Below are positions 1,371 to 25,387 of a DNA stretch of 64,000 nt, one piece after another (position 1 is the first letter of the stretch; every line of letters starts with the position of its first letter). This stretch comes from an uncultured Planctomycetota bacterium (GTDB lineage: Bacteria > Planctomycetota > Phycisphaerae > SM23-33): the NCBI GenBank assembly GCA_903892515.1, contig CAITIS010000088.1, positions 1 through 64,000 on the forward strand, in the 5' to 3' direction. The translations under genes and the position numbers were made by a program. The notes under the pieces are model-generated. The model saw only the letters and a program-made list of their open reading frames with translations. It was not told the DNA's origin and did not search any database.

Positions 1371-1384
1371 GGCTTTTCCTCCTT

Positions 1385-1561: not shown

Positions 1562-1618
1562 GTGCATGCCTCCGCAAAGATACATTTGTTAGGTAACCCC
1601 GACTCCATGCCCACCGCA

Positions 1619-3066: not shown

Positions 3067-3248
3067 GTGTCCACGCTCCTTTCATCAGCAGCGCGTGATT
3101 CCTGCACGCGCCTCTGACATAACTGAAAGCGGACGGGCGGATGGGGGCGGATTTCGGGGGAGATCGGATGTGCTCGCGACGGAAAACCTGAAGGATCAGG
3201 CGTTTGGAGAGATGAAGAAATCCGGCGGATTTCTGAGGGGCGTCCGGT

Positions 3249-4892: not shown

Positions 4893-5009
4893 GCTCAGGA
4901 GCAGAACGCCTGATGGACTAATCTAGCGGCCGATGCCGATGGCGACAAGGCGCAGCCGTCCACCGTCGCGCCCGAACTGCTGGATGTCGTGCGCCGACCT
5001 GTGTGACAG

Positions 5010-6314: not shown

Positions 6315-6318
6315 CGGC

Positions 6319-6765
6319 TCATTTCCCGATCCAACCGCGCCACCTCAGCACGGCGAATGCCGCAAGCAACAACACGCCGGATGTTATGGCGGAGGCCATG
6401 ATCGCCACGGCGACGCGCAGCCGGAACGGGTATCTGCGATCCTCCACCATGACGGATAAGGCGTCCTCAAATGCCTGGTTGCCCGGTGCAAGCGCGAGGG
6501 CGTCCCGCCAACAGGCTTCGGCAGCGGCGTACATCCCCTGTTGGGCATAGACTTTCGCCTTCAGATCGAGCGCCGATGGCCCCAGGGGGCTGTCGGATGG
6601 CAATGCCATCAACATGGCGACAGCCTCGGCGTACCTCCCGCGCCTTGCAAGGCGGTTGGCCCGCAGCAGGATCTCTCGGTCCTTTGCGGGATCATCTCGC
6701 CGCCCAGTGCCGTGCCCGGCCGCAAGCCGCACCATCGTGTCATATTGTCGCTGAGATACGGTCAT
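6319..6765 (-). CDS. TPR-like protein with a C-terminal membrane anchor
   Basis: Residues 25-100 contain two helix pairs of tetratricopeptide type (RANRLARRGRYAEAVAML, then AKVYAQQGMYAAAEACWRDALALAPGN). Residues about 115-140 form one hydrophobic helix followed by a short basic tail, so it is probably tail-anchored in the inner membrane with the repeats in the cytoplasm. I prefer the ATG at the start of MTVSQRQ over a GTG three codons earlier. It follows the Hsp70 gene by 12 bases. TPR proteins are common adaptors for Hsp70, but binding to this chaperone is inferred from position only. Confidence 0.7.
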   Translation of the reverse strand: MTVSQRQYDTMVRLAAGHGTGRRDDPAKDREILLRANRLARRGRYAEAVAMLMALPSDSPLGPSALDLKAKVYAQQGMYAAAEACWRDALALAPGNQAFEDALSVMVEDRRYPFRLRVAVAIMASAITSGVLLLAAFAVLRWRGWIGK

Positions 6766-6777
6766 GCACTCCACGCC

Positions 6778-9297: not shown

Positions 9298-9311
9298 ATT
9301 TGTTCGTCCTC

Positions 9312-10004
9312 TCACTCGGTTGGATGTGCCTGTTGGCCGGCGTCGGCGGCCGGCGCGCCTGTATCGCGATCCGCTGGTTCCGCAGCACCGCTATCGGTGG
9401 CTTCGCCGCTTCCGGGCAAGTCGGCGGGTCTGGGATCGTCACGCTCGTCGATCGGCCGAGCCACGATCACGTCGGCCCGCTGAATAAGAATGTCCTTGTA
9501 GAAGACCGACGGCTTGATGGTCTCGTGAATCACTTCCGTGCCTACGCCTTCCATCGGCTGGAACGTTATCGGGTTTACCGCCATGCCCGGCACATACCGC
9601 TGGCCAGTGAGGTCCTGAATCTCGATTCCGCCAGATGCAAGGGCGTCCCAAGCTGCCTGGACGTGCCGTGGAAGATGCCGGAACTCGCTGGGCAACTCGA
9701 CGCCGGCCTGGTTCTCCAGTTTCGCTCGTGCCCGCCAGATTGCGGTAGCCACGGCAGCTACGACCTTGAGCAGATGCTTGGAGTCGGCATCGAGTCCTCT
9801 TGCAGCCATGGGTTCTCTGCCAGCCGGCGCTATGCCCAACATCGCATCTTCGGACACCATTACGATGTCCGGCGACTCGTCGATTCTGAACGGCCCTGGA
9901 TGCGTCATCTGTCGCGCATCATCCACGGCACGCCGCAGGATGACCTTGATCCTGCCCGCCTTGCGGCGACTTTTGGGTCCGTTACCATTCTCGTCAGCGT
10001 TCAT
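9312..10004 (-). CDS. GrpE-like nucleotide exchange factor
   Basis: Residues about 105-195 resemble the C-terminal half of GrpE: a helix leading to a beta domain with GGIEIQDLTGQRYVPGM, then a conserved ETIKPSVFYKDILIQRADVIVA stretch that parallels the GrpE ending on a strand near VVVA. The N-terminal long coiled coil of true GrpE is short or replaced, and a Pro/Ala/Asp-rich tail of about 40 residues follows. By family it would release ADP from Hsp70. It is encoded directly upstream of the divergent Hsp70 gene (15 bases from the likely start), which fits a dedicated partner. An AAGGA ribosome site precedes the ATG. Assignment is by pattern, not by a strict motif. Confidence 0.65.
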   Translation of the reverse strand: MNADENGNGPKSRRKAGRIKVILRRAVDDARQMTHPGPFRIDESPDIVMVSEDAMLGIAPAGREPMAARGLDADSKHLLKVVAAVATAIWRARAKLENQAGVELPSEFRHLPRHVQAAWDALASGGIEIQDLTGQRYVPGMAVNPITFQPMEGVGTEVIHETIKPSVFYKDILIQRADVIVARPIDERDDPRPADLPGSGEATDSGAAEPADRDTGAPAADAGQQAHPTE

Positions 10005-10021
10005 GGCACTGTTCCTTATCG

Positions 10022-12334
10022 TTATCGTTCGCCGCTGTTGTAGCGACGCACCCTGTCATTTACCGAATCGATTTCGCGGCTGTACTCTGCGTACTTGCCC
10101 TCGCGCTCGAGGAGAAGTGCATTATGCTGTTTGACGAGCGCGTTGTGATTTTCGAGAGCTTGCTGATAGAGAGACTGATTCACATCAAGGCCCAGTCGAG
10201 CCTGGCGCTCGTAGCCCTCGATCTCCTGTTTGTAGCGATTGATGCGACTTGATAGCGATTCCAGATTCGAGTCCATCCGCTCGATCTCGGGCTCCATGCT
10301 CTTGGCTCGCGCCTTGCCTGCGTCGATCTGAGTCGATAGCACGGAGAGCGAGTACCTCGGCGGGTCCGTCCGTGGTGGCGAATAGCCATTCGACGGAGGT
10401 GTCCGAGGGCTGTCAGAGGGATACTTGTACGGGCTTGAATAGTCGTCGCCGCGAGGAGACCCCGTCGCTGCATGCCCCCACCTGTCATCCATGATGCCGA
10501 AGACTATTGAGTGCCCAACCGCCGCGAGGACAACAGCCGCTCCAATAACCTGAACGGCCGCTTTCCCTCGCAACAACGAGCGCCCCCGCGAGTATTTCGA
10601 TGCGGTCTTTGGGGTTGATGAGGAAGCGTTGCTCTTCGCAAAAGCGTCAGCATATAGCGGGTTGTGGAAGCTGAACACCGCAAGTGGCCCCATTACGCCT
10701 GTCATCGCAACAGCAGGACCTCGTGCGGCATGGGTGTCTTTCAGGACATGCACCTTCACAAGACAGGCCAACACGCCGAATGCGACAGCCGAGAGCACTA
10801 TGCCAATCAGCAGAAATGGGACGTACTCGATGCGATTTATGTTAACGCCGATGACGAATGAAGCAATCACGGACAGTCCGACAGAAAGCAGGACAAGAAC
10901 TGCCCTTTGCCAGGTAAGTTCCCGCTGATGTCCGCGGCACTCATTGCACAGCGGAAACGCGAAGGAGCGCGTGTGCTTTATGCGCCTGTTGTACCCGGCG
11001 TTCTCTTCCCAGGAGTAACTTACCGACTGCTCGGCATCTGCCGGCCCGAGGCAGCATGCGCAGACACGCGGGACGCTGATCCGTTCCCCAGAAACGCCGA
11101 CCTCATAGACCTTGTTGCCAACGACTTGGATCTTCAGGCTCTCGTATTCACGCTCTTGTTGCAGGTTCTTCTCGACCTGAGCAATGTCCGCTCGAAGCCG
11201 ATCCCGCAAGCCGTCGTGGAGGGCGATGCTTACCGCCTGCTTCAGTAACCCGACGCATCGCTCCCAGCCCCCGGTGCTATTCCCATAGTCAATGGTGCAA
11301 TCACGAATCGCCTGTGCGACGGCGTCGCACGCGGTTCCTCGAAGATGGTGTTTGTTGTCGAGCAGGGCGCAGATGCTGGCCAAGAGGGGGCCCGTGTCGA
11401 TCATCAACTGCTGCGCAATCGTATCGGCGTGTACAGCGTCGGCCTTGCACTTTCCGGGCACAGGTTCGCACATCTGCTTGATTTGTTCGACCAGCGGAGC
11501 CGCTTCGCGATCAAGTATGGCAGCAGCCAGGCTTTCGTCAAAACCAGCAATGTGCGCACGGGCCAGATGCTTCCGCGCGCCGTCGACGTCGCCCCGTTTG
11601 GCCGAACTGATCGCCAGCCTGATACTGATGGTTAGCAGCACCACCGGCAAGGTGCGGCGCAGTCGAGAAGCGACATCCACCTTGAACCGCGGATCATTCC
11701 AGTCACGGCGCAACTCCTCTATTCGTCCGACTACTCGGTCCCAGGCAGCTTCGTCTTTCGCTACAGCAGCCCAGTGATCAAGAGCCACTTGCCAGTGCTT
11801 GTCACGCCGAGCGGCAGACTTCTCGTCGGGGCGTTCCTCGCCCCGAAGCTCACGTTCCATGTCGAGCACGACGGCGTGGTGAAGAACGGCCAGGTTGTGG
11901 GTTGCAACATCCTTATGCTGCCCGTCTCTTGCGAGCTGCGACCACAGGGCATGAGCACCTCGAAGGTCGGCCTGCCGCATAAGTGTAAGCCCGCGATCAT
12001 CATCAGAGCACTGGTGATCAAGTGGCCAGAACCAGAACACTTCGTGGACTAGCCGCGATTCTGGATCGTGAAGTCGCTGATTTGCCTTTCGGATGGCGTC
12101 AGAATCGGGGGCCGGCTCGAGCGGAAGGATGACGGCTTGGCGAGGGGCCGCATCATCGCCGAGTTTCTCCAGCATCTTCATCTTCCTCTGTCGCCTGGAC
12201 AGATCTCCGCTGGAGACATCTATAGGCAGCCCGAGGATACGGAACGCATTGAGGCGATACAGATCGGGCGTCGCGAGTTCGAGCATCGCTCCGCATTCAC
12301 TGTCCGCGCCCAATGATGTACCCGACTCAGCCAC
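10022..12334 (-). CDS. Membrane protein with possible degenerate J-like N-terminus, zinc ribbon and coiled coil
   Basis: This 770-aa protein has several parts. Residues 24-110 (YRLNAFRILGLP, then RRQRK, then KANQRLHDPESRL) resemble a J-domain layout of helices but lack the His-Pro-Asp motif. Residues 110-400 are helical and repeat-like. Cys425/Cys428 and Cys463/Cys466 can form a zinc site. Hydrophobic segments lie near 476-497, 504-526 and 590-612, then a Ser/Pro/Tyr-rich linker and a coiled coil from about 665 to the end. It starts at a GTG with AAGGAG nine bases upstream. Lying between the kinase and the GrpE/Hsp70 genes, it may recruit the chaperone to the membrane; that is inference. Confidence 0.6.
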   Translation of the reverse strand: MAESGTSLGADSECGAMLELATPDLYRLNAFRILGLPIDVSSGDLSRRQRKMKMLEKLGDDAAPRQAVILPLEPAPDSDAIRKANQRLHDPESRLVHEVFWFWPLDHQCSDDDRGLTLMRQADLRGAHALWSQLARDGQHKDVATHNLAVLHHAVVLDMERELRGEERPDEKSAARRDKHWQVALDHWAAVAKDEAAWDRVVGRIEELRRDWNDPRFKVDVASRLRRTLPVVLLTISIRLAISSAKRGDVDGARKHLARAHIAGFDESLAAAILDREAAPLVEQIKQMCEPVPGKCKADAVHADTIAQQLMIDTGPLLASICALLDNKHHLRGTACDAVAQAIRDCTIDYGNSTGGWERCVGLLKQAVSIALHDGLRDRLRADIAQVEKNLQQEREYESLKIQVVGNKVYEVGVSGERISVPRVCACCLGPADAEQSVSYSWEENAGYNRRIKHTRSFAFPLCNECRGHQRELTWQRAVLVLLSVGLSVIASFVIGVNINRIEYVPFLLIGIVLSAVAFGVLACLVKVHVLKDTHAARGPAVAMTGVMGPLAVFSFHNPLYADAFAKSNASSSTPKTASKYSRGRSLLRGKAAVQVIGAAVVLAAVGHSIVFGIMDDRWGHAATGSPRGDDYSSPYKYPSDSPRTPPSNGYSPPRTDPPRYSLSVLSTQIDAGKARAKSMEPEIERMDSNLESLSSRINRYKQEIEGYERQARLGLDVNQSLYQQALENHNALVKQHNALLLEREGKYAEYSREIDSVNDRVRRYNSGER

Positions 12335-12352
12335 GCAATTCTGCTCCTTCGA

Positions 12353-13453
12353 TCACATGCAAATTCCTCGCCGCCACAATGCCAACTGAGACTGGTAGCG
12401 ATCCCGCAGTTCAGGTGTCTTGTTGATTGCCTCCTCCAGCAGATCGGCCGCACTCATGAGGCTGCCGGGGGCTTTGGACATTTCAATAGCGCGCCGCACC
12501 ATGTCATGGGCGGCACTCGCATCCGTGGGCGAACGCATCCCCATGGCGCTCTTGCCGTCTCCGGGCTGAGCACTGCTTGTTGGGGACGAGCTGATGTCAG
12601 GCCGCCCCGGACGCCAGCGATTCAGGTCTTCCAACATCGCCGACGCGTCAGCGTATCTTTCGCTCGGATTCCTGGTAAGGCAGCGAGAAAGGATGGAATC
12701 GAGCGATGAGTCCACGGCCATGTTGTACACGCTCGCGGGTCGTAGCGGTCGCACAAACCGCTTGGCTTCGGCGATGTCCCGTTCATCGAGCTCCGGGTAC
12801 GGAAGCGTGTCGGTGAGCAGCAAGTACAGGGTGGTGCCAAGTGCCCAGACATCCGCCGCCGGCGAGTCCTGGTTCTCGAAGGATTCCGGGGGCTTGAAGC
12901 TCAGCGTGCCCTTGGCGCTGACCAACAACGTGAGTGGATTCACCCTCTTGGCCAGGCCGAAGTCACCCACGCGAACACGCAGCCCGGCCCCGTCGTAACC
13001 GACGAGAATGTTCTGGGGCTTAATGTCGCGATGGACGACCGGCGGTTCTTCGGCATGCGCCACCGCGATGCCCGCGCACACCTGCTTCATGACATCGACG
13101 GCCTGTTGAACAGGCATGAGGTTATCGCGATAGGACCGCCAAAATCGGTCAAGGCTGCCACCGGCCACGTACTCCATCGTGAAGAACCCGAACTCCCCGA
13201 GCGGTAACTCCAGCGTGTTCGCGTCAAAGACTCGGACGATGTTCGGATGCCCGATTCTGGACAGCAACAGGGCCTCGCCGAGCATCTGCTCAATCTCTTC
13301 CACGGTCATGCCGGGCGTCTTCAGAACCTTCATGGCTTGACGACCCAGGAAACGATGCTGGACACGATAGACCTCGGCGAAAGCGCCCTCGCCGAGGTAT
13401 CGCTCTACCGAGTACGTCTCCCGGATTCTCTGTCCTTCCTTCAGCAGTGCCAT
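12353..13453 (-). CDS. Eukaryote-like Ser/Thr protein kinase
   Basis: All catalytic motifs are present: Gly-loop GEGAFAEV (residues 21-28), Lys42 in MKVLK, HRDIKPQN (141-148), DFG (164-166) and a KPPE variant of the APE motif near 187-190. The kinase domain ends near residue 285. A Ser/Pro-rich linker and about 50 residues resembling a tetratricopeptide unit follow. No membrane segment or extracellular sensor is seen, so it is probably cytoplasmic. The ATG at the start of MALLKEG is preferred over a GTG three codons earlier. It is the first gene of the minus-strand chaperone set that also contains an FHA reader, so the module may be phosphorylation-controlled. Confidence 0.93.
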   Translation of the reverse strand: MALLKEGQRIRETYSVERYLGEGAFAEVYRVQHRFLGRQAMKVLKTPGMTVEEIEQMLGEALLLSRIGHPNIVRVFDANTLELPLGEFGFFTMEYVAGGSLDRFWRSYRDNLMPVQQAVDVMKQVCAGIAVAHAEEPPVVHRDIKPQNILVGYDGAGLRVRVGDFGLAKRVNPLTLLVSAKGTLSFKPPESFENQDSPAADVWALGTTLYLLLTDTLPYPELDERDIAEAKRFVRPLRPASVYNMAVDSSLDSILSRCLTRNPSERYADASAMLEDLNRWRPGRPDISSSPTSSAQPGDGKSAMGMRSPTDASAAHDMVRRAIEMSKAPGSLMSAADLLEEAINKTPELRDRYQSQLALWRRGICM

Positions 13454-13676
13454 GAACGCCACCCGTGTTGGCTGCCCTCGGCGTCAGCCGCTGGTGCAGC
13501 CGTCCAGCCGCTATCGTTTGGCCGAACGTAAGTCAGCCGGCTGCCAAAGTCAAGAAGCAGGTTTGGCATCTGTTAGCATCTGCCGCTCGGCGGGGCGGCA
13601 TTGGGAAAACGCGTATCGCCGACGAATGGTCTCGGATAGGGGCCCCGGAACTGCGTTCTGCTGCCCCGGTCTAAGT

Positions 13677-13704
13677 GATCCATCCGTGCGAAACCGGATA
13701 GATC
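13677..13704. promoter_or_regulatory. Inverted repeat, possible operator
   Basis: Ten-base arms GATCCATCCG and CGGATAGATC match at nine positions around an eight-base loop. The repeat lies 224 bases upstream of the kinase start, the first gene of the chaperone set. A regulator-binding role is only a possibility. Confidence 0.25.
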
Positions 13705-13924
13705 ATACCGCAGTGTTCGTCCGGCCGCCAGATGCCGCTGTATTCGCTAGGCGAGACGAACCGTCTCCGGCCGCGCCGAAAAGTGACAACAGCCTTCGCG
13801 GCAGCAACGAGTTGCTCTCTCACGCCGTGTCGGCTACACCGTCCCTGCCCCAAGTGAACCGCAGTATGATGTCGTCGGTTGGTCGTGAACTACCAACGTC
13901 GCCTTTCGCCCCGACTTTGCTGCC

Positions 13925-13962
13925 AGAAAGCCTTCCCTTGAAAAGTGGGAGGCTTTCTTCTT
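13925..13962 (+). terminator. Terminator-like hairpin with T-rich tail
   Basis: AGAAAGCC-TTCCC pairs with GGGAGGCTTTCT (one bulged base) around a nine-base loop, and the second arm runs into a T-rich CTTTCTTCTT. This is the shape of a factor-independent terminator on the plus strand. No plus-strand gene is visible upstream, so it may end an unrecognised transcript or insulate the Nudix gene. Confidence 0.5.
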
Positions 13963-13990
13963 GCGCAAACGCCGATTAGGATCTGCGCTC

Positions 13991-14527
13991 ATGGCAGAGC
14001 GAGTTAAACGTGCCGGGGAGGCTGCTGGATTGCCAGCCTGTGAGCAAAGGTGGACTGGCCAAGGCCGGGCGCCTTTTCAAGTGCTTGTCCTGCCGTATCG
14101 CGTCGCGGGCGTGAGAGTCCAATACGCCATCTTCAAGCGGGCCGATGCCGGCTACTGGCAGTTCATCGCTGGCGGGGGAGAAGGCAGCGAACTGCCCATC
14201 GAGGCCGCTCGTCGGGAGGCCTGGGAGGAGGCCGCGATCCCGATGACGGCATCGCTGCACCCATTGGAGTCGCGCAATACAGTTCCGGTGATGGAGCTGG
14301 CGGGATTCCTGCGCTGGGGGCCGGACGTGCTGGTTGTACCGGAATACACTTTTGCGGTGCATGCGAGCGATGCGGAGCTGCGAATCGGGCCGGAGCACAC
14401 GGAATTCCGCTGGGTCGATTACGACACCGGCCGCGAGATGCTGCACTGGGACAGCAACCGCAACGCGCTGCACGAGCTGAATCACCGCATAATCAACGGG
14501 ATGGTTCCCGGCCAAGAGCAGCCGTAG
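13991..14527 (+). CDS. Nudix hydrolase
   Basis: The Nudix box is easily read: G-x5-E-x7-REAWEE-x-A-I, in the stretch starting GGGEGSELPIEAARREAWEE, with Ala in place of the last conserved Gly. The box coordinates magnesium for cleavage of nucleoside-diphosphate-linked compounds. The protein of 178 aa has the size and layout of NudB-like (dihydroneopterin triphosphate) or dATP pyrophosphohydrolases, but the substrate cannot be told. The ATG start has AGGA nine bases upstream; a TTG ten codons earlier also has a GGGAGG site, but this lies within the terminator-like hairpin. No operon partner is adjacent. Confidence 0.85.
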   Translation: MAERVKRAGEAAGLPACEQRWTGQGRAPFQVLVLPYRVAGVRVQYAIFKRADAGYWQFIAGGGEGSELPIEAARREAWEEAAIPMTASLHPLESRNTVPVMELAGFLRWGPDVLVVPEYTFAVHASDAELRIGPEHTEFRWVDYDTGREMLHWDSNRNALHELNHRIINGMVPGQEQP

Positions 14528-14528
14528 G

Positions 14529-14581
14529 GTGTGCAGGTTCTTCGCCGCGCTGTTGTTGTTTGCGGCGAAGGTTCTGCACAC
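14529..14581. repeat. Large palindromic hairpin, copy 1
   Basis: GTGTGCAG...TTCGCCGC pairs with GCGGCGAA...CTGCACAC over 20-base arms with a four-base mismatch patch and a 13-base loop. It begins two bases after the Nudix stop codon and could act as a terminator, though no T tract follows. A related palindrome is found 21 bases downstream. Confidence 0.7.
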
Positions 14582-14602
14582 GCGTGAGGCCTCGCACGTC
14601 CC

Positions 14603-14645
14603 GTGTGCAGAACCTTCGCGATGAAGCCGCGAAGTACCTGCACAC
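14603..14645. repeat. Palindromic hairpin, copy 2
   Basis: GTGTGCAGAACCTTCGCG pairs with CGCGAAGTACCTGCACAC over 18-base arms with a few mismatches around a seven-base loop. It shares the GTGTGCAG/CTGCACAC ends with copy 1, so the two look like members of one repeat family. Confidence 0.65.
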
Positions 14646-14736
14646 CCTACAACTCGCTGCACACCCCGCGCGACTACAGTTCTGACGTCCCACGCGGCCC
14701 ACGAAATGATGAGGAGCCGATCTGGCTGGCGACCAG

Positions 14737-15039
14737 TCACCCGAGGCCGGTTCGCTCTCCACGTATCCCGAAACCTAGTTTGTTGGCGTTCAGCAGGAGT
14801 GCAGCTACTGCAACTGCTGCCGCAAGCATGACCCAGTGCTCCGCCCACTCGATCCGTTTGTATTCCTCCTGCGTGCCGTATCTCAGCACATGGTTAACAT
14901 GGACCGCTATCGTGCGGTTGGCGCTCGTGTCCGGTTCCGGCGGCAGGGCATAGGAGTACTTCACATGCCAGTAGGTCGTCCAAGTTAAGGCCGCGAAGAG
15001 GTTCAGGATGAACACGCATACGACGATCTTGTTGAGCAT
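14737..15039 (-). CDS. Small membrane protein, unknown (100 aa)
   Basis: Two hydrophobic helices (residues about 3-24 and 68-86) flank a polar segment of some 40 residues with Tyr, His and charged residues, so the middle part probably faces the periplasm. No family is recognised. The ATG at the start of MLNKIVV is preferred over a TTG three codons upstream; an AGGG lies nine bases before it. The downstream neighbour on the same strand is the intergenic repeat region, and the upstream HlyD-like gene ends 52 bases away, so it may be co-transcribed with that gene. Confidence 0.5.
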   Translation of the reverse strand: MLNKIVVCVFILNLFAALTWTTYWHVKYSYALPPEPDTSANRTIAVHVNHVLRYGTQEEYKRIEWAEHWVMLAAAVAVAALLLNANKLGFGIRGERTGLG

Positions 15040-15091
15040 TATCCGCAACCCTATTAGACGCGTCGGAGGCTCTGTTGCTGGGTTCCCGTTG

Positions 15092-16243
15092 TTACCCCTG
15101 CATCGCGGTGATGTCCACGAGTTGGCCGGGGACCAAGTTCATGCCATGAGGCACGGCGATCAGGATGGGCCGGCCCCATTCCGGGCGGGTGGGGTCGAGC
15201 CGCTGGTGGGCCGGTATTTCCTGGACCGCAGGCCCAAGTTGCAGGACCGTCGCGGGAACGGGCTGGCCGGCGGGCGGGCGAGTCTGCAGGAGCATCGTCG
15301 CGCCGACCTTGGGCTGAGTAGGCTGCCGGTCGCGAATATACGCCACGATGGTCGGCGTGCAATCGGCCGTGATGGAGAGAATCTCATCGCCGGCCTGGAC
15401 GACCTGGCCGGGACGGTGCAGGATCGCACATATCTTTCCCGACGCCGGCGCCTTTATCGCACCGCAGGCGATTTGCAGTTCCAGTTCGTGCGCCCGCGCT
15501 TCGGCAGCCGACCGGGCCTTGCGGATCGGATCCAGGAATGCCTCCAACTCCGACGGCTGGGTCGAGGGAAAATCACTCTGGCGCGTCTCGGCCGATTTCA
15601 GGTCGAGCTGGGCCTGGGCCATTTCTCGCTTGGCGCCTTCAATGATCTGGTTGCTTTGGTCGCAGCGCAGCTGGAGATCCTCGACCTCAAACGTGGTGGC
15701 CGCACCGGCCTGGCGGAGCTTTTCCGTGCTATGCAGGAACATCTCGGCCCGCGCCAGCCGGACCTGCTCAGATTCGATCTGGGTTTGCAGCGAGAGGATC
15801 TTCAGCCGGTACGTTTCCAAGTCCACGCCCAGCCGTCGCCACTCGGTGAGCCAGTTGTACTCGCGATCGGTTTCTTCCTGGCGGATCTTGGCGGCGACGG
15901 ATTCGAGTTCTTTCTCCTGCCGCGATACCTCTTCCCGCAGCGCCGTCAAGCCGGCCAGACGCGGCTCGTCATCGAGCTGGGCGATGCACTGGCCCTGCTG
16001 GACCTGGTCGAAAAGCTGCGGCGAACCGCTGCTCAAGGCCGTGAGGATGCCTGCACACGGCGCTCGCACGGGTATGCTGGTGACCTGCACCTCGCCGACG
16101 AGTTGAGGCAGCTGCGGATTGTGTTGCCATAGCCAACCAGTACCCAGCACGGCCCCAACGAGAATTATCGCCGGCAGCAACTGGTGTCGAATCTGTCGAA
16201 GATGAACTCGTAAAGGCGTTCGAATGCGCTTCGGTTGAGTCAT
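15092..16243 (-). CDS. HlyD-family periplasmic adaptor (membrane fusion) protein
   Basis: One membrane helix (about residues 22-40) is followed by a lipoyl-like half (SIPVRAPCAGILTAL), two long coiled-coil helices (about 100-255), the second lipoyl half (CGAIKAPASGKICAILHRPGQVV) and a beta-barrel end. This is the standard order of HlyD/EmrA adaptors, which link an inner-membrane transporter to the outer membrane. No transporter or outer-membrane factor is encoded beside it, so it appears orphaned here. A CCGGAG site precedes the ATG. The length (383 aa) is normal for the family. Confidence 0.85.
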   Translation of the reverse strand: MTQPKRIRTPLRVHLRQIRHQLLPAIILVGAVLGTGWLWQHNPQLPQLVGEVQVTSIPVRAPCAGILTALSSGSPQLFDQVQQGQCIAQLDDEPRLAGLTALREEVSRQEKELESVAAKIRQEETDREYNWLTEWRRLGVDLETYRLKILSLQTQIESEQVRLARAEMFLHSTEKLRQAGAATTFEVEDLQLRCDQSNQIIEGAKREMAQAQLDLKSAETRQSDFPSTQPSELEAFLDPIRKARSAAEARAHELELQIACGAIKAPASGKICAILHRPGQVVQAGDEILSITADCTPTIVAYIRDRQPTQPKVGATMLLQTRPPAGQPVPATVLQLGPAVQEIPAHQRLDPTRPEWGRPILIAVPHGMNLVPGQLVDITAMQG

Positions 16244-16712
16244 AAATACTCCGGATCCTGCAAACCCGACTCCTCTTTACGCATGCACAGATGATAAGGA
16301 TCAGAAACGCCGGACAAGCTGTCGTGTCCGCTGCCTTGGCTGACAAATTGCGGGCGAATACTGTGACGCCGCCGCAGCAGCGGCCAAGCTCGTCCGCGCG
16401 TCGCAAAACAGCAGCACTGCCGCGGTATCCGCGGCTTTGTGAACAGCCGTTTGCTGGCAACGACCGCCAGCAATACTCACAATTATACTGGGCTTTGTCG
16501 GTTTTTTAAGCGAATTCCCGGCCGCCCATGCACTTGTGGAGTCCCTGAACGGCTGCATGAATTGCTTCTAAGCAGAAGGGCATTGCAGGATTCAGTTTTT
16601 ACATTCGGCATCTTCTCGCGGAAGGTCGTCGGGTAATATGCTGAGATTGCTGGCTGCGGCGGACGCCCGGTCCTTTGGCCAGCGTACTCAAGACCGGGCA
16701 GGAGCAGATGAT
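16244..16712. other. Intergenic region, no gene seen
   Basis: About 470 bases between the divergent HlyD-like and DUF3616 genes. It holds an eight-base inverted repeat TTGCTGGC/GCCAGCAA at 16451-16473, followed by an AT-richer stretch with TATACT at 16484-16489 but no matching -35 box. I see no supported coding frame. Confidence 0.4.
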
Positions 16713-17996: not shown

Positions 17997-18136
17997 CACG
18001 TTAAGTTGTGGCGGCCACAGTCTGGCCAGGCGGCAGGTTTTCGCGCCGGCTGGCGGCACTAGGATCGCGGGCTGGTGCGCGTCCGCCGCTACGAAACGCA
18101 TATTTGCTTCCCCGTAGATGAGTCGCGTACTTTACA

Positions 18137-18176: not shown

Positions 18177-18818
18177 ATGGTTGAGTTTCAGGCCGTCGAT
18201 CTTGGCGGGGCGTGGGTGCGAGTGCTGCGCGCCGTCTGCCGCACCGGCGAGGATGTCGGCGGCGAAGCTCGTGAATTGCGTAATGTCTGCCTGGCCTTTC
18301 AGGAACCCCTCTGCAAAGACGGCCCCCTGGCCACTTGGTCGCAACGGCAACCGGTGGAGGAGATGCGAAAGGTTTTCTTCACCGACCAGCCGAACACGTT
18401 CGGCCACAGTTATTCCCACAAGATTCGCGGCCCCCGGGGCCTGTCCGACCTCAGCGACGTGACGGAATTATTAGCGGCCGATCCGCTGTCCAAGCGGGCC
18501 GCAGTCGTGCTGGTGGGTAATGGCGACGGGAGGGTGCCGTGCATAAACACGGTGCATTTCCTGCGCCGCCAGGCCGGCATTTCGGTCAGCTACTTCGCCC
18601 GCGGACAAGATATCTTCCGCAAGTTCTACGCCGATTCCGTCTGCCTGCACGAGATGGGTCGCCGGGTGGCAAGCCCGCTGGGGCTGGAAGTTTGCCAGGT
18701 GGCCGGGATGATAAGCTCGGCCCACGTGTACTTGGCCGACTTGGCGGAAGCCGAGGCGATGCTGGCTGAAGTTGAGCGTTGTGGCGACGCCGGCGTGCTG
18801 GATCGGAGTGGCGCGTGA
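18177..18818 (+). CDS. Thymidylate-synthase-fold protein, probable cytidylate hydroxymethylase
   Basis: From residue 121 the sequence aligns without gaps to E. coli thymidylate synthase from Pro145 to Tyr209 by eye: Cys122 is the nucleophile (Cys146), Arg142 the phosphate ligand (Arg166), Asp145 equals Asp169, and His183/Tyr185 equal His207/Tyr209. The position of Asn177, which selects uracil, is Asp153. That same change is known in dCMP hydroxymethylase (phage T4 gp42) and in CMP hydroxymethylases of nucleoside-antibiotic pathways, and it favours cytosine. At 213 aa the protein is shorter than TS; the C-terminal part is reduced. Its stop overlaps the GTG of the radical SAM gene. Fold and residues are seen; substrate is inferred. 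Confidence 0.78.
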   Translation: MVEFQAVDLGGAWVRVLRAVCRTGEDVGGEARELRNVCLAFQEPLCKDGPLATWSQRQPVEEMRKVFFTDQPNTFGHSYSHKIRGPRGLSDLSDVTELLAADPLSKRAAVVLVGNGDGRVPCINTVHFLRRQAGISVSYFARGQDIFRKFYADSVCLHEMGRRVASPLGLEVCQVAGMISSAHVYLADLAEAEAMLAEVERCGDAGVLDRSGA

Positions 18819-20203
18819 AGTTCTTTCTAATAGTATCACGCTGTCTGAACCCCAAGCAGACCTACCGGGAGTATCCCCTGGGGGCCGGCATGATCGCCAC
18901 GTCGATGCGCCGGCTGGGCCACGAGGTGGTGCTGCACGATCAAACGGCCGAAGGAACCGACGACGACCAGGTCGTGGACCTCGTGCGCGACTCCGCTTGC
19001 GATGTAGCCGGCTTCTCGGTGATTACGCCAAGCTATCCCGTGGCACAGCGGCAGATCCGGCGGTTAAGAATCCGGTTGCCTGAGCTGCCGATCGTCGTGG
19101 GGGGGATACACGCCAACCTCTTTCCGCAAGACTTGCTGGGCGACGGCGCAGATGCAGTCGTGCTGGGCCAGGGCCAAGAGGCGATGGGGCTGCTGATGGA
19201 TCGGCTGGGGAATCGGCGGACCTGGAGCGACGTGCCGGGGCTGGTTTTCCGGGACGATCACGGAGGGGTGGTGCAGACGCCCCCGCGTGCGCCGGATGCG
19301 CCAGTGAATCACGCCCAGGACCACGACCCCGACGTGGTTGACCGGGACGTGTACAACCTTTCCCGGTATACGCACCATTCGATGCTCGCGTCGCTGGGCT
19401 GCCCGTTTCGCTGCATGTTCTGCTGCAATTTCTCCAGCGTGCTGCTGCAAGGCGGCCTGCGCGTCCGCGCGGTTGACCGGGTGATCCAGGAGATACAACA
19501 CCTGCATGAGCGGTACGGCGCCAGCGAGGTGTTCTTCGCCGACGACGTCTTCCTGCTGACCCGCCAGAGCATCCTGGCCTTTTGTCAAAGGCTGCGAAAC
19601 CTGGAACTGCCGCTGCAATGGGTGGCGCAGATGCGCGTGGATGTCATGGATGCCGAAGTGGCCGAGGCGATGGTTTCAGCCGGGTGCCACCGGGTGTACT
19701 TCGGCGTGGAGTCCGGCTCTGATGCGATACTCCAGCGCGCGGGCAAGGGCTTGGATCGCCAGGCGATTCGGCGCGGCATCGCCGCTGCCAAGGCCGCCGG
19801 CATGCGCGTCAAGACGGGTTGGATTGTTGGCCTGCCAGGGAGCATCGCCGAGCAGTACGAAACGGTTTCATTCATTCGCGAGCTGCGGCCCCACGAGGTG
19901 TCGATCCATCAGCTGATTCCCTTCCCCGGCACCGAGTACTACCGGAATCCAGCCGCACACGGCGTACGGATTCGCGACCCGAAGGACTTCGCGAGCTTCT
20001 GCTTCGGCGGGCTGAGCGACAACATCTCCTTCGATTATCTCCCGGCAGGCGACCTGCTGGAATTGTTGAGGTACACCCAGGAGTCGCTGGAGTCGGAAGG
20101 ATATGTGAGCAGCGACCGGGCCAAGGGCACGGAACAGTACCTGTATTCGACGCCGCAAAACGCGGTGTCCATGAAGGTGTTTGGCGGCAACGGGCAGCGT
20201 TAA
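18815..20203 (+). CDS. B12-binding-fold radical SAM protein
   Basis: The N-terminal 140 residues have the Rossmann-like pattern of cobalamin-binding domains, but the DXHXXG motif is not obvious (HDQTAEG near residue 41). The radical SAM cysteines are Cys196, Cys200 and Cys203 in CPFRCMFC, followed by a GVESGSD-type strand and the usual barrel. Such enzymes perform radical methylations, ring changes or sulfur insertion on nucleotides, lipids or natural products. The GTG start overlaps the TS-like stop (GTGA) and has GGAG six bases upstream. Coupled translation with a nucleotide-modifying gene suggests a shared pathway. Length is 462 aa. Confidence 0.88.
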   Translation: MKFFLIVSRCLNPKQTYREYPLGAGMIATSMRRLGHEVVLHDQTAEGTDDDQVVDLVRDSACDVAGFSVITPSYPVAQRQIRRLRIRLPELPIVVGGIHANLFPQDLLGDGADAVVLGQGQEAMGLLMDRLGNRRTWSDVPGLVFRDDHGGVVQTPPRAPDAPVNHAQDHDPDVVDRDVYNLSRYTHHSMLASLGCPFRCMFCCNFSSVLLQGGLRVRAVDRVIQEIQHLHERYGASEVFFADDVFLLTRQSILAFCQRLRNLELPLQWVAQMRVDVMDAEVAEAMVSAGCHRVYFGVESGSDAILQRAGKGLDRQAIRRGIAAAKAAGMRVKTGWIVGLPGSIAEQYETVSFIRELRPHEVSIHQLIPFPGTEYYRNPAAHGVRIRDPKDFASFCFGGLSDNISFDYLPAGDLLELLRYTQESLESEGYVSSDRAKGTEQYLYSTPQNAVSMKVFGGNGQR

Positions 20204-20297
20204 ACGATCCGCATGCGAATGGTTTTGCGACAATACGGCGCTTAGTCCGCCGTTGTTATAAGAAGGGATTCTTGTGACCCAGCAGGAGACAGTGCGA

Positions 20298-21977
20298 ATG
20301 TGGAAAGTGCCGGAGATCATGGCGACCATCGGGCCGACGCTGGAGAAGCCCGAAGACCTTTGCCGCGCCATCGAGGCCGGCGCTCGCTGGTTCCGCCTGC
20401 CGTGCGGGTATCGGCAGCGTCCGCACTTAGAGAACGCCCGAGCGATTCGCGCCGCCGCTGAGCAGACGGGCCAGCCCGTCCAGTTGCTGATGGACCTGCC
20501 GTCGTCGCGGCCCCGCACGGGGAAGATGGCCGAACTCCGGCTGGATATCGGCGACCGGGTCGTGTTTTGGGATCCGGAATCCGATCCGACGCCACCTGCG
20601 GAGGCGAAACCATCGCCGGTGCCGCTGCCGGGGCTATCGAGCCTGCTGGAGAAGCTGGGGCAGGGGCAACGGATGTGGTTCTGCGACGGCCGGCTGGAGT
20701 TCCGGGTGGACGAACTGTCCGGCCGGCACGTGCTGGCGCACCTCGATCGCGGGAGCGTCACGCTGAAGTCGTCCAATGCGATCTGCCTTCCCGACAGTTC
20801 CAGTCCGTACGTGATCGTCACCGCCGAGGACCGTGCCCTGCTGAACTCGTTTGCCCGGGCCGGGCTGATCCCAGACTGGATCGCTCTGTCGCTGATCTGC
20901 TCGCCCCAGGACATGTCCGACGGCCGGCGGGAAGTGCGTGAACAGCTCGGCGCGGATGTCCGAATGATGGCCAAGATCGAGACGGCCGAGGCGTTGCAAG
21001 AGACCGAAGCGATCATCGCCCAGAGCGATGGCGTCATGGTCGCACGCGGCGATCTGGGGCCGGCCGTTGAGTTCGTCAGGCTGCCGGAGGCACAGGAGCA
21101 GATTGTGGCGGCGGCCCGGCGGTTGGGCAAGGTGTCGGTGGTGGCCACGCAGGTGCTGGAGACCTTCGCCGAGACGGGGATTCCGCAGCGTGCAGAGCTG
21201 TCGGACCTGTCGCTGGCTGCGCGGCAGCGTCCTGACGCGGTGATGCTGGGCAAGGAAACCGTGTACAGCCCCCGGCCGATCGAATCCATTCGACTGGCGC
21301 GGGACGTGCTGAGCTACGAAACCTGTCGGTTGGAAGTCGCCGCGGTGCGGCTGCCGCCGGCGCTGTCGGCGGCCATTGGGACGCCGCGCGTGGTGGGCAT
21401 CGAAGGGCCCAACGGCTCGGGCAAGTCGCTGCTGTGCCAGAAACTGAGCCAGCGCCTACGGGCCACGAGCCTGCGCGGCGTGCCACTGGAGTGGGAAGCG
21501 CCCGAAATGAAGCTGCGGATGATCCGCGACGCAGATTGGCTGGCGTCGGCCATGTACTTTCTGTCGGGCGTGATGGAGTCATCGCGCCAACTGCGCAAAG
21601 ATGGTGGCAAGCTGGCCATCATGGATCGTTCGGTGTGGTCCACGCTGGCGGTGCAGTATGCTCACGATCCCCAACGACTGGCCCCGCTGATGAGCCTGCT
21701 GTCTGTGGCCGGAGATCGAATCAAGGCGCCGGACCTGACCATAGTGCTGGAGGCCAGCCCTGCCACTTGCCGCGGACGGATAGCTGGTAAGCCAGCGCTG
21801 GAGCAACAGTACGATTCGGCCGAACCTGCCGCCGAAGATTTCCAGAGCCGCCAACGCGATTTCTACCGCTGGCTGGCCCAGCAGTGGCCCGGGGTGGTCT
21901 TCCTTGATACCGAAGGCTGCGACGGCCAGGCCGTGTGCGACAAGGCCGAGAGCCTGATCCGAGGTTGGATGCAGTAA
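20298..21977 (+). CDS. Pyruvate-kinase-like domain fused to a thymidylate-kinase-like domain
   Basis: Residues 1-345 follow pyruvate kinase: ATIGPTLEKPEDL at the start, MMAKIETAEAL with Lys226, VMVARGDLG (247-254), VVATQVLETF and PQRAELSD. The early RxNxSHG substrate motif is replaced by RLPCGYR, and the C-terminal allosteric domain is absent. Residues 359-559 form a P-loop kinase: GIEGPNGSGKS (367-377) and MDRSVWSTLAVQY, as in dTMP kinases. I know of no standard enzyme with this fusion. A plausible role is phosphorylation of a modified nucleotide, with the barrel serving a phosphoenolpyruvate- or sugar-phosphate-linked step. The ATG has AGGAG nine bases upstream; a GTG eight codons earlier is possible. 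The stop overlaps the next ATG. Confidence 0.82.
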   Translation: MWKVPEIMATIGPTLEKPEDLCRAIEAGARWFRLPCGYRQRPHLENARAIRAAAEQTGQPVQLLMDLPSSRPRTGKMAELRLDIGDRVVFWDPESDPTPPAEAKPSPVPLPGLSSLLEKLGQGQRMWFCDGRLEFRVDELSGRHVLAHLDRGSVTLKSSNAICLPDSSSPYVIVTAEDRALLNSFARAGLIPDWIALSLICSPQDMSDGRREVREQLGADVRMMAKIETAEALQETEAIIAQSDGVMVARGDLGPAVEFVRLPEAQEQIVAAARRLGKVSVVATQVLETFAETGIPQRAELSDLSLAARQRPDAVMLGKETVYSPRPIESIRLARDVLSYETCRLEVAAVRLPPALSAAIGTPRVVGIEGPNGSGKSLLCQKLSQRLRATSLRGVPLEWEAPEMKLRMIRDADWLASAMYFLSGVMESSRQLRKDGGKLAIMDRSVWSTLAVQYAHDPQRLAPLMSLLSVAGDRIKAPDLTIVLEASPATCRGRIAGKPALEQQYDSAEPAAEDFQSRQRDFYRWLAQQWPGVVFLDTEGCDGQAVCDKAESLIRGWMQ

Positions 21978-23188
21978 TGCTGATGCTGTTGACGGGCAAC
22001 CTGAAGAAGTACTCTTCGTTTGAAGGGCTGCTGAAGCAGCTGGAGATCCGGCTGGAGAAGCCGGCGTTTCAGCTGCTGGAGCTTCAGGCTACCGATTTCC
22101 TTACCGTGCTGGAGCACAAGGCGGCTCGGGCGGCCGCGGAGTTCGGCTCCCCATGCCTGGTCGATGACAGCGGGCTGGTGCTGGACGCGTATCCTGGTTT
22201 TCCCGGCCCGATGACGGCTGATGTCTGCCGCATGCTCGGGGCCGAGGGCTTGCGCCGGCTGCTGGAGGGCACAAGCCCGCACGGACGCATGGTCTGTCAC
22301 ATTGGCTGCATGATTGAGGGGAAGTTGTGGCATTGGCAGGGCGAGATCCCCGGAACACTGGACCCGCGTCGCCCGGTCAGCCCTGATGGTCCCGGCCCGC
22401 TGTCCAGTTGGTTCCTGCCGGATGATGCCGGCGCTTCGGGCGTGCTCGGGCATCGGCACAGAGCGCTGGAGGCGCTGGCGAAGGACATCGCCGTGCTTCG
22501 CGCGGCCCTGGCGGGCAAGCAGGCCGGAGCCAGTTGCGATGGTCCTCCGTGCGTCTTCTGCCAGGAATTCAACGGCAGTGGCAACTCCGTCTTCGACGAG
22601 CTGTCGGAGGGTGAGATTCCCTCGCGGATTATCCATCAAACGCCCCATTTCACGGTGTTTCCGCCGCTGGGGCAGTTCATCGAGGGCGGGCTGCTGCTGG
22701 CCACCCGCGAACACATCTTCTCCATGTCCGAGCTGAACGAGCAGCAGTACGACGATCTGGAACGATTGATGGCCGAGACCGCCGACTTGCTGGAGAAACG
22801 GTACGGCTGCTGTCCGCTGTTCTTTGAGCATGCGCCACTGACCGCCGAGGAAAAGGGCACGTGCTGCGTGAATCACGCGCATCTGAACGTGTTTCCGGCC
22901 AACGTGGACGTGCACGAGCAGCTGCGGAAGTTCCCGCATGAGCAGATCGGCCAGATGCGTGAGATGGCCGACATGCCGGGACGGCACCGCGGATATCTGT
23001 TTCTACAAGATAATCAGCGGCGGCGATTCGTGTATCATGTGGGTATCGTGCCGTCGCAGTACGTGCGCCGGATAGTAACGGCGCAACTGGGAATGCCCGA
23101 GCGGTGGCACTGGCGGCAATACCTGGGGATCGACGAGCTGAAGCGGACGATGCAAGCCCTGCAAGGCTGGAGGTCTTCGGATGCCTGA
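21977..23188 (+). CDS. ITPase (HAM1)-like domain fused to a HIT domain
   Basis: The first 170 residues carry HAM1 signatures: LLTGNLKKYSSF with TGN at 6-8, LEHKAARAA, and LVDDSGLVLDAYPGFPGP (DDSG at 63-66). Such enzymes hydrolyse non-canonical nucleoside triphosphates to monophosphates. Residues 190-400 are a HIT hydrolase/transferase domain starting at CVFC (192-195), with the active-site triad written HAHLN (300-304): the nucleophilic middle His is kept, and the third His is Asn. The fusion suggests coupled handling of a nucleotide made by this gene set. The start ATG overlaps the previous stop by one base; the end overlaps the methyltransferase start by eight bases. Confidence 0.85.
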   Translation: MLMLLTGNLKKYSSFEGLLKQLEIRLEKPAFQLLELQATDFLTVLEHKAARAAAEFGSPCLVDDSGLVLDAYPGFPGPMTADVCRMLGAEGLRRLLEGTSPHGRMVCHIGCMIEGKLWHWQGEIPGTLDPRRPVSPDGPGPLSSWFLPDDAGASGVLGHRHRALEALAKDIAVLRAALAGKQAGASCDGPPCVFCQEFNGSGNSVFDELSEGEIPSRIIHQTPHFTVFPPLGQFIEGGLLLATREHIFSMSELNEQQYDDLERLMAETADLLEKRYGCCPLFFEHAPLTAEEKGTCCVNHAHLNVFPANVDVHEQLRKFPHEQIGQMREMADMPGRHRGYLFLQDNQRRRFVYHVGIVPSQYVRRIVTAQLGMPERWHWRQYLGIDELKRTMQALQGWRSSDA

Positions 23189-23870
23189 CACCTCGCGAAA
23201 GGTCTACGGCCTGGCGCCTAGCGCGACCGATGATTACCAGTCCTTGCGACTGGATGTCATCCGCCGGCGTTGGGACACCAAGGCCCAGCGGTGGGACACG
23301 GACCTGGCCGACGAGAGCTGTCACCTGAACGAGGATGGAGCGTACGCGCGGTTCCTGGAAACGGCCCGGGGCATCGTGGATCAGCGGGCGGACTTTTGCT
23401 GCCGCCACCTGCTGGTGGACGTAGGTTGCGGCACCGGTCTGGTGCTGGCGAGCCTGCTGGGATATTTTGCAGAGGGACTGGGCTTGGATATCAGCGCGCG
23501 GATGCTGGCGGTGGCCAGGCAGCGTGGGCTCCCGCGGGCACGTTTTGCGGAAGGCAACTGCTTTGAGCTCGGCCAGTGCGTCCAGCAGGCCGGGGCGATC
23601 GTTTCGCGCGGAATCCTGCTGTCGCACTACGGAACGCGCTGGGCCGGCGTGCTGCTGGGGCAGGTTCATGCGGTTGTGGGAGAGGGCGGGTTTGCCCTGC
23701 TGGACTTCCTGAACGCATCCTGCCGCGAACAGTTTGCCGAGCGCCCTGAGAATAAGACATACTTCACAGCCGAGGAGATGGCGGCACTGACCATGGAGGC
23801 GGGCTTTGCCCACTTCCATATTCTGGGTGAGCCCTGGCATCGTGTGCGCATGCTGTTGTTGGAGCGATGA
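23181..23870 (+). CDS. Class I SAM-dependent methyltransferase
   Basis: Residues 78-90 (LVDVGCGTGLVLA) are motif I of Rossmann-fold methyltransferases, and GLGLDISARMLAVARQ is motif II with the acidic residue that holds the ribose. The remainder fits the Methyltransf_11/25 pattern. It is 229 aa with no membrane segment. GGAGG lies seven bases before the ATG, and the gene overlaps the ITPase-HIT gene. The substrate is not visible; position suggests a small molecule or nucleotide made by the preceding enzymes. Confidence 0.85.
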   Translation: MPDTSRKVYGLAPSATDDYQSLRLDVIRRRWDTKAQRWDTDLADESCHLNEDGAYARFLETARGIVDQRADFCCRHLLVDVGCGTGLVLASLLGYFAEGLGLDISARMLAVARQRGLPRARFAEGNCFELGQCVQQAGAIVSRGILLSHYGTRWAGVLLGQVHAVVGEGGFALLDFLNASCREQFAERPENKTYFTAEEMAALTMEAGFAHFHILGEPWHRVRMLLLER

Positions 23871-23873
23871 GAC

Positions 23874-24686
23874 ATGGGCCACAGCGCGCGATATGAACTG
23901 AAGTACGTGATCGAAGAAGCCCGGGCTGTGGCCGTGGCCGACTTCGTGAGCAGCTACATGCGGCCGTCGGACTTCAACGGCGATGGCCCGGTCCGCGGGC
24001 ACCCGGTTGTCAGCCTGTACATGGACTCGCCGGACTGTTTTTTCTACCACCAGGCGTACACGGGGCATAAGAACCGGATGAAGCTGCGTATCCGGTTCTA
24101 CGATGACGACTGGTCGCGCCCGGCCTTTCTGGAGATCAAGCGGCGGGCCAGCGACGTGATCTGCAAGGATCGGGCGATGATCACGCGCGAAGGCGTGCGG
24201 CAGATTCTGTCGGAGGGTTGGCCGGCGCAACCCTTCTGGCCGCAGGACGCATGGCTGATCCACGGCAAAAAGCGGCAGGACGTCAGCGATGACTTCTGGC
24301 GTTTCGCCAACCTCAAGCGGGCTCGCGGAATGATCTATGTTTCCTACATCCGCGAGATATGGGAAGCGCCGGATGACGATGAATTGCGCGTGACTTTCGA
24401 CAGGTACGTTCGCGGCAGCACGTACGACGGCAGCGGGCGGCTGAGCCTGCCACGGTACGGCTGGCGGCCATACATGCCGCCGTACATGGCGCCATTTCGC
24501 GACGACAACGTCGTGCTGGAACTGAAATTCGACGACAAGGCCCCGAAGTGGATGTTCGATTTGGTGAGGATCTTCAATTTGCAGCGGATACCGGTGTGCA
24601 AGTATACCGCGTGCATATACGCCGCCGGGCTGCAGTGGGGCAAGCCGGTACGCAGGGAAAACGAAGAGGAGTTGATGCTGATATGA
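23874..24686 (+). CDS. VTC-domain protein (polyphosphate polymerase-like)
   Basis: The tunnel-fold motifs of VTC proteins are present: RYELKYVI near the start, VSLYMDSPD, MKLRIRFYDDD, FLEIKRR, then VVLELKF near the end. In yeast Vtc4 these strands line the active tunnel that transfers phosphate from ATP to polyphosphate; basic and acidic residues on them are kept here. At 270 aa it is the bare domain. It follows the methyltransferase by three bases, and its stop overlaps the start of a DUF4956 membrane gene, a pairing often seen in bacteria. Polyphosphate synthesis is a family-based guess; other nucleotide-using reactions are possible. Confidence 0.9.
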   Translation: MGHSARYELKYVIEEARAVAVADFVSSYMRPSDFNGDGPVRGHPVVSLYMDSPDCFFYHQAYTGHKNRMKLRIRFYDDDWSRPAFLEIKRRASDVICKDRAMITREGVRQILSEGWPAQPFWPQDAWLIHGKKRQDVSDDFWRFANLKRARGMIYVSYIREIWEAPDDDELRVTFDRYVRGSTYDGSGRLSLPRYGWRPYMPPYMAPFRDDNVVLELKFDDKAPKWMFDLVRIFNLQRIPVCKYTACIYAAGLQWGKPVRRENEEELMLI

Positions 24687-25387
24687 ATACCTGGCAAGCT
24701 TGGCAGGACATTTTGCTTAACGGCAACGCTGGCGTGACGTCGGTAGGCGCGGGCAATGTAGTGCTTATGATGCTGCTGTCGTTCGTGCTGGGAATGGTGA
24801 TCGCCTACGTGTACATGTGGACGCACGAGGGAATTTCGTATTCCCGCACGTTTGCCGCCTCGCTGGTGGCGCTGCCGCTGCTGGTGGCCATGATGATGAT
24901 GCTGATGGTCGGCAGCTTCGTGATGGCCTTGGGGCTGTTCGCGGTCTTCGGCGTCATCCGCTTCCGAAATGTGCTGAAGGACACCCGTGACACGCTCTTT
25001 ATCCTGTGGGCCATCTTGGAAGGCCTGGCGGTGGGCAACTGGCACTATTCCACCGCGGTGCTGGCGCTACTGGGGGCCTCGGCGGTGTTCGTGTTCATTC
25101 GCATGGCCTCCTTCGGCACGCGGAATCGGTACGACGCGGTGCTGACGGTGCGGATAACCGGCGATACGGCCGTCAGCGGTGCGGCGCTGCGGAAGTTGCT
25201 GGTCCGGCACGCCGCAAGGCGGACCTTGGCCAGCGAACGACGGACCGCCGGCCAGGGGCTGGATGTGACCTACCGCCTGCTGCTGCGCGACCCGCTGCGC
25301 AGCGAGGAACTTCGCGCGGAGCTTGCAGGCGTGGAAGGTTTCCAGAACGTTTCGTTGTACATGCACGATGATGAAGCGGAGATCTGA
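24683..25387 (+). CDS. DUF4956 membrane protein
   Basis: Hydrophobic helices lie at about residues 22-45, 54-90 and 112-140, followed by a cytoplasmic alpha/beta domain of some 95 residues. The sequence between helices, FGVIRFRNVLKDTRDT, is the conserved core of DUF4956. These proteins are found beside VTC-domain proteins and are thought to be their membrane partners. The start overlaps the VTC stop (ATGA), and a GAGGAG lies 11 bases upstream. It appears to be the last gene of the 18-25 kb train. Function is not known for any member. Confidence 0.85.
   Translation: MNTWQAWQDILLNGNAGVTSVGAGNVVLMMLLSFVLGMVIAYVYMWTHEGISYSRTFAASLVALPLLVAMMMMLMVGSFVMALGLFAVFGVIRFRNVLKDTRDTLFILWAILEGLAVGNWHYSTAVLALLGASAVFVFIRMASFGTRNRYDAVLTVRITGDTAVSGAALRKLLVRHAARRTLASERRTAGQGLDVTYRLLLRDPLRSEELRAELAGVEGFQNVSLYMHDDEAEI

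Follow-up and report, generated by a model that had tools for sequence, protein, structure and literature searches.

An uncultured Planctomycetota bacterium carries, in the 64,000-nucleotide stretch of DNA analyzed here (the window), a gene for a small thymidylate synthase (TS)-fold protein, P0001, which opens a series of five same-direction genes that overlap or are separated by short gaps. This raises the question of which base and which sugar such a protein would recognize, which chemistry it would perform, and what the genes that follow it would make of its product. The features concerned, including one gene beyond these five, are:

18177 to 18818, plus strand: P0001, TS-fold enzyme of 213 amino acids, predicted CMP C5-hydroxymethylase.
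18815 to 20203, plus strand: B12-binding radical-SAM protein of 462 amino acids, with a CxxxCxxC motif and a cobalamin-binding domain.
20274 to 21977, plus strand: pyruvate kinase-thymidylate kinase (PK-Tmk) fusion, with a divergent PK barrel (residues 14–339) and a Tmk-like P-loop domain (residues 376–535).
21977 to 23188, plus strand: Ham1/RdgB-like NTP pyrophosphatase-HIT fusion, whose ATG overlaps the previous stop (TAATG).
23181 to 23870, plus strand: SAM-dependent methyltransferase of 229 amino acids, overlapping the Ham1-HIT gene by 8 bp.
23874 to 24686, plus strand: VTC-domain (polyphosphate polymerase-like) protein, 3 bp past the methyltransferase gene.

Homologues and the structural model support ATG 18177 as the probable start of P0001 rather than an alternative in-frame GTG at 18075, which would add 34 residues. 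A profile search, proposed with the initial annotation, does match P0001 to TS profiles, at scores below their curated cut-offs: 19.9 bits (E 4.6e-4) against 24.3 for Pfam Thymidylat_synt, and 51 bits against 174.55 for TIGR03283 (methanogen-type TS), its best NCBIfam profile match, of which it is thus not a member; the PHROG 160 TS profile matches it at 1.6e-13. When the PDB was searched by sequence, the CMP 5-hydroxymethylase MilA ranked first and the L. casei TS mutant N229D second, Asp153 of P0001 being paired with an Asp in both. The AlphaFold model (18-sequence alignment, pLDDT 79.5, pTM 0.76, with low confidence over residues 45–90 and poor confidence over 70–89) matches 396 PDB chains at a Z score of at least 8. 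The AfhB structures 9iqu and 9iqc come out on top (Z 20.8 and 20.3; 190 residues at 2.5 Å for Z 20.8), with MilA at Z 19.9 (193 residues, 2.2 Å) and TS at Z about 18; since gaps in Z of less than 1 are taken as ties, AfhB and MilA are tied, and Foldseek places MilA in first rank. With its TS fold, the catalytic Cys122 and the phosphate-binding Arg107 and Arg142, P0001 is a distant member of the TS superfamily (20–30% identity with the characterized enzymes) and a compact form of an already known type of enzyme. Its short length, about 50 residues below TS according to the initial annotation, is not unusual and is common to T4 gp42 and the AfhB-type enzymes, which do without the C-terminal tail of the E. 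coli enzyme.

Analysis of the active site indicates which base would be bound. The key residues of P0001 are Lys106, Arg107, Cys122, Arg142, Gly143, Asp145, Asp153, His183 and Tyr185. The initial annotation had claimed that the Cys, Arg, Asp, His and Tyr of the TS site are kept (Cys122, Arg142, Asp145, His183 and Tyr185) and that Asp153 occupies, in a gapless alignment, the position of Asn177 in E. coli TS. Both claims hold: the pairing with MilA is gap-free from Cys122 to residue 197, HxY motif included, and Asp153 corresponds to Asp186 of MilA and Asp179 of T4 gp42, while the same column is Asn in all 32 archaeal-type TS from the phylum, the host genome's own TS (contig 71) among them. In a set of 33 sequences, Asp is found in this column in P0001, nine CMP-type enzymes, four phage enzymes of the 5-hydroxy-dCMP synthase type, T4 gp42 and six other phage or plasmid TS-like proteins. 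Asp186 of MilA is common to the cytosine enzymes (PMC5175136), and a preference of P0001 for cytosine is therefore probable and, on these residues, well supported. As a separate observation, phage and plasmid proteins named thymidylate synthase (L050, L084, L085, L088, L089 and L090) have Asp at the Asn177 position, so misnamed, cytosine-acting enzymes may be among them. One of the 32 archaeal-type TS compared (L014) has Ala in the Gly143 column and Asn in the Asp153 column, without the usual HxY, and is possibly another enzyme of altered substrate.

Two further positions, Lys106 and Gly143, which the initial annotation overlooked along with the operon beyond the radical-SAM gene, bear on the sugar. 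They correspond to Lys133 and Ala176 of MilA, which set CMP over dCMP, the A176S/K133R exchange reversing the preference (PMC5175136); the ribose-selecting pair of that study is Lys with Ala, the Gly variant being known from five actinobacterial homologues. Lys together with Ala or Gly occurs in 9/9 CMP-type enzymes, which form one clade and hence do not count as nine independent events and whose actinobacterial members bear this label by clade and residues rather than by assay, and in 0/23 of the other sequences besides P0001. Gly itself, as in P0001, is present in five of the nine, all five actinobacterial, and the complete combination of Lys, Ala or Gly, and Asp is confined to P0001 and these nine among the 33 compared. 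Lys106 and Gly143 thus point to a ribonucleotide, and CMP rather than dCMP is the best-supported predicted substrate of P0001.

These positions also weigh on two other origins for P0001. That it is an ordinary TS whose Asn177 was exchanged by chance during drift would agree with the weak Pfam score and the deep relationship to TS; we regard it as highly improbable, given that the genome possesses a normal TS, whose three diagnostic positions read Asn, Arg and Ser, and that in P0001 all three have changed jointly to the CMP-type set. A phage-derived dCMP hydroxymethylase or methylase, now chromosomal and feeding a modified dCTP, appears quite unlikely to us. T4 gp42 and other phage enzymes have the same Asp, sequence searches with P0001 also turn up TS-like proteins of phages, and one tree joins it to Gordonia and Brevundimonas phage enzymes (91/93). 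That join is however flagged as a long-branch risk, all 11 Asp-type sequences outside the CMP type, T4 gp42 included, carry Arg with Ser as the ribose-selecting pair where P0001 has Lys and Gly, and no phage genes were recognized among the scanned neighbours of the operon. On either side of the operon, the scanned genes resemble those of a chromosome (Hsp70, FHA, M50 peptidase, HlyD, dehydratase, glycerate kinase), and the GC content of the operon (0.63–0.66) is in line with the window. A chromosomal copy outside a phage, considered unusual in the initial annotation, is nothing exceptional, since enzymes of the CMP-hydroxymethylase type are found on chromosomes or plasmids in many actinobacteria. 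Independently of this, GC3 is about 0.65–0.80 in positions 1–16300 of the window compared with about 0.80–0.89 in 25400–64000, and the former region, with Hsp70, FHA, TPR, M50 peptidase, protein kinase and HlyD genes, is possibly one export or signalling cluster.

The phylogeny called for by the initial annotation was run and leaves P0001 on a long branch. A second tree places it on the archaeal TS side, and the AU test rejects none of the groupings with CMP-type enzymes (p 0.056, which does not support that grouping either), archaeal TS (0.10) or AfhB-type enzymes (0.21). The CMP signature of P0001 may have been inherited or have arisen by convergence.

Which chemistry P0001 would perform is a matter of folate or flavin. 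The PDB titles describe AfhB as a dCMP hydroxylase and a riboflavin-dependent monooxygenase, and the Mosigvirus enzyme of this type is described as a TS-superfamily member that synthesizes 5-hydroxy-dCMP and is homologous to the hydroxymethylase (PMC13390438). P0001 could by analogy be a flavin-dependent (d)CMP C5-hydroxylase yielding a 5-hydroxycytidine nucleotide, the main rival as far as chemistry is concerned and one that we judge unlikely. In its favour, AfhB is of similar length and stands at the top of the structural matches in the tie with MilA, its sequence homologue OLIVR5 is aligned over 82% of P0001, and Gln144 (RxQ) is common to P0001 and the AfhB type. The PDB sequence search with P0001 as query, on the other hand, did not find AfhB, and the four AfhB-type sequences read R...S-Q-N where P0001 reads K...G-Q-D, with Arg, Ser and Asn in place of Lys106, Gly143 and Asp145, so that their R-S-Q-N motif is R-G-Q-D in P0001. 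Asp145 occupies the position of Asp169 of E. coli TS, which touches the pterin ring (PMC6400193) and is Asn in 4/4 AfhB-type homologues. These four also have no Glu in the column of the folate-activating Glu, with which Glu62 of P0001 is aligned by three of three alignment methods when the catalytic Glu is that of archaeal-type TS. When the MilA-type rows alone are aligned, no Glu of P0001 falls at the catalytic position (Glu68 of MilA), in a shortened segment to which the model gives low confidence, and Asp145 of T4 gp42, proposed to favour hydroxymethylation, is Arg119 in P0001. Judged by these residues, folate chemistry is favoured for P0001, although not strongly. Of the cytidylate hydroxymethylase proposed in the initial annotation, the preference for cytosine is retained, Asp153 sharing the position of MilA Asp186 and T4 Asp179; the hydroxymethyl group is the presumed product, AfhB matching the model equally well, and methylation stands beside it as an alternative.

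The genes that follow P0001 suggest a use for such a nucleotide. The radical-SAM gene starts at GTG 18815 and overlaps the P0001 stop (18816–18818) by 4 bp; the two are separate genes and not the fusion that the initial annotation had described. The closest solved structure to the radical-SAM protein is AprD4 (2e-24), with a weak match to OxsB, a B12 enzyme whose substrate is a nucleotide. Among PADLOC models including viperin, the only one reported for this protein, which also has a B12-binding domain, is PDC-M51A. A defence system of the PDC-M51 type was set aside: the radical SAM (1.2e-5) and kinase (8.9e-12) models both match, and the kinase model detects ordinary Tmk, matching 13/14 control genomes as well. 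Following a gap of 70 bp, the PK-Tmk fusion retains the PEP/Mg residues of the PK barrel (R41, D74, K234, E236, D260 and T292), while the NFSH segment conserved in relatives, which in pyruvate kinase includes K+ ligands, has become PCGY (N43P and S45G in the numbering of the fusion). The Tmk-like domain displays the motifs GPNGSGKS and DRxxxSTxAxQ. The PK part scores 142 bits, compared with 328–389 bits for the complete PKs of relatives, and no second PK besides the fusion was found in the host genome, which is 91% complete; most relatives have a PK scoring much higher than the fusion. In the Ham1 domain DDSG and HR..A are retained and GFGYDP, a motif lining the purine pocket of Ham1/RdgB and present in 10/10 relatives compared, is lost. 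Since a normal TS (contig 71, with Asn), Tmk (contig 16) and RdgB (contig 84) are encoded elsewhere in the genome, the operon copies would be dedicated versions; from their sequences, its kinases and Ham1 look like re-specialized, divergent forms of housekeeping enzymes. Ham1 of the operon also matches the Ham1-like KomB of Kongming-like signalling, which is not claimed here, the partner proteins not having been seen. Relatives of the HIT domain have as neighbours ThyX with an ATP-binding protein in Parabacteroides (L077, 2343–6636), or cysteine desulfurase-type genes on Streptomyces, Lactococcus and Rhizobium plasmids (L078, L079, L080 and L081); from these neighbourhoods no clear function emerged. 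The VTC gene, perhaps co-transcribed with the operon, is not given a step in the proposed pathway; it and a DUF4956 gene (together 23874–25387) come within a few bases of the operon end.

From the fold, the active-site residues, the operon structure and the altered specificity motifs, all read directly in the sequence, we infer the substrate, reaction, order of steps and product that follow. P0001 would bind CMP, Asp153 reading the cytosine and Lys106 and Gly143 accommodating the 2'-hydroxyl, and would transfer a one-carbon unit from methylene-tetrahydrofolate onto C5, with 5-hydroxymethyl-CMP as the most likely product. This nucleotide would then be tailored by the B12-radical-SAM enzyme and the methyltransferase, the Tmk-like domain would convert the monophosphate to the diphosphate, and the PK-like domain of the same protein would use PEP to produce the triphosphate, which Ham1-HIT could hydrolyse or process, either for self-protection or late in the pathway. 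Support at the level of residues concerns the first step, the later ones being proposed from domain content. That P0001 is a CMP enzyme adding a one-carbon unit, within an operon building a modified cytidine triphosphate, is an assignment we hold with slightly better than even confidence.

The same first step could serve another purpose, namely an exported nucleoside antibiotic of the mildiomycin/bacimethrin or 4'-thiothymidine kind, with Ham1 as the self-resistance triphosphatase. The 4'-thiothymidine cluster needs no more than thmA-C, namely a radical SAM enzyme, a kinase for nucleosides and a nucleotide triphosphatase, with thmC conferring resistance (PMC12691670). Each of these three activities has a functional counterpart in the operon, a likeness of functional classes by description. 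The fusion of PK to Tmk points instead to a triphosphate as end product, and no MilB-like glycosidase, phosphatase or transporter was recognized in the operon; an antibiotic pathway is a possibility that we would not expect to prevail. The modified triphosphate remains the preferred reading, and the operon probably contributes to the synthesis of a hitherto undescribed modified cytidine nucleotide.

Neither an orthologue of P0001 nor an orthologous operon was found in 60 genomes of relatives, 392 of the phylum and 397 of the class (overlapping samples), where P0001 matched other kinds of TS and, falsely, a MacB-like permease (L092). Peptide-pattern scans, which detect close relatives only, yielded none for P0001 in genome contigs, nor for P0001, P0002 and P0003 in viral contigs. 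Scanning a genome collection with the CMP-type alignment identified seven actinobacterial loci, which with the plasmid loci L051 and L052 make nine. Seven of these (L051, L054, L056, L057, L058, L059 and L060) share the order CMP-hydroxymethylase-type TS, nucleoside diphosphate kinase (NDK), radical SAM protein and 3'-5' exonuclease; the other two have MilB-like and HMP-kinase-like genes, as in bacimethrin clusters. A B12-radical-SAM gene near one bacimethrin-type locus (L055) was discarded as a pathway member because it appears to be part of a neighbouring cluster. As the nine loci were chosen by the TS sequence alone, the recurrence of radical SAM protein and NDP kinase supports a shared kind of pathway. 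The radical SAM proteins of the module are not similar to that of the window, and the one scanned for a B12 domain gave no match. The ribose-contacting Tyr (Tyr185 in P0001) is Asn in six and Ala in one of the seven module TS, so their substrate may differ from that of MilA. Nothing specific on such a module was found in open-access texts, and this conserved four-gene module is apparently undescribed. The operon around P0001 likewise appears undescribed, and more informative than P0001 alone.

A more far-reaching proposal sees the operon as a factory for a new modified CTP, comprising a minimal CMP hydroxymethylase, a B12-radical-SAM enzyme, a bifunctional NMP/NDP kinase and a Ham1 of changed base specificity; the triphosphate might be an antiviral chain terminator like the ddhCTP of viperin, or a signal, and the actinobacterial module would be an independently built counterpart. 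Taken as a whole this is speculative and we consider it doubtful. A few nucleoside antibiotic pathways are known to use CMP hydroxymethylation; P0001 would be a compact enzyme of this kind in a different setting, linked to enzymes predicted to assemble a triphosphate. If true, it would provide a minimal enzyme for studying switches of base, sugar and chemistry on TS scaffolds, as well as a route to a new cytidine nucleotide, and the actinobacterial module, being of the same type, makes the question testable in culturable strains.

Compared with known systems, P0001 has in common with MilA and BcmA, the CMP 5-hydroxymethylases of mildiomycin and bacimethrin, the TS fold, the Cys, Arg, Asp145, Asp153, His and Tyr, and Lys with a small residue at the ribose-selecting positions. 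These enzymes have about 330 amino acids, whereas P0001, with 213, is without the C-terminal part and about 15–17 residues around the catalytic Glu helix, and no MilB-type glycosidase adjoins it. T4 gp42 (246 amino acids), the dCMP hydroxymethylase, has the same Asp at the Asn177 position and no E. coli-type C-terminal tail, but is a phage gene with the dCMP pair of Arg and Ser. AfhB and the 5-hydroxy-dCMP synthases (Mosigvirus RB69 ORF048c, OLIVR5) share the compact TS fold, Asp153 and RxQ, and differ by Arg/Ser/Asn instead of Lys/Gly/Asp, the missing Glu in the catalytic column and, according to PDB titles, dependence on riboflavin/FAD. Archaeal-type TS (TIGR03283) can be aligned with P0001 over its N-terminal half. 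As to the operon, the small thmABC cluster, compared by described function only, likewise brings together a radical SAM enzyme, a P-loop kinase and a nucleotide triphosphatase, yet has no TS-fold enzyme. The actinobacterial module sets a CMP-type TS, with Gly at the Gly143 position in 5/7, beside a radical SAM protein and an NDP kinase as the operon does, with NDK instead of PK, a different radical SAM protein, and Asn or Ala replacing Tyr185.
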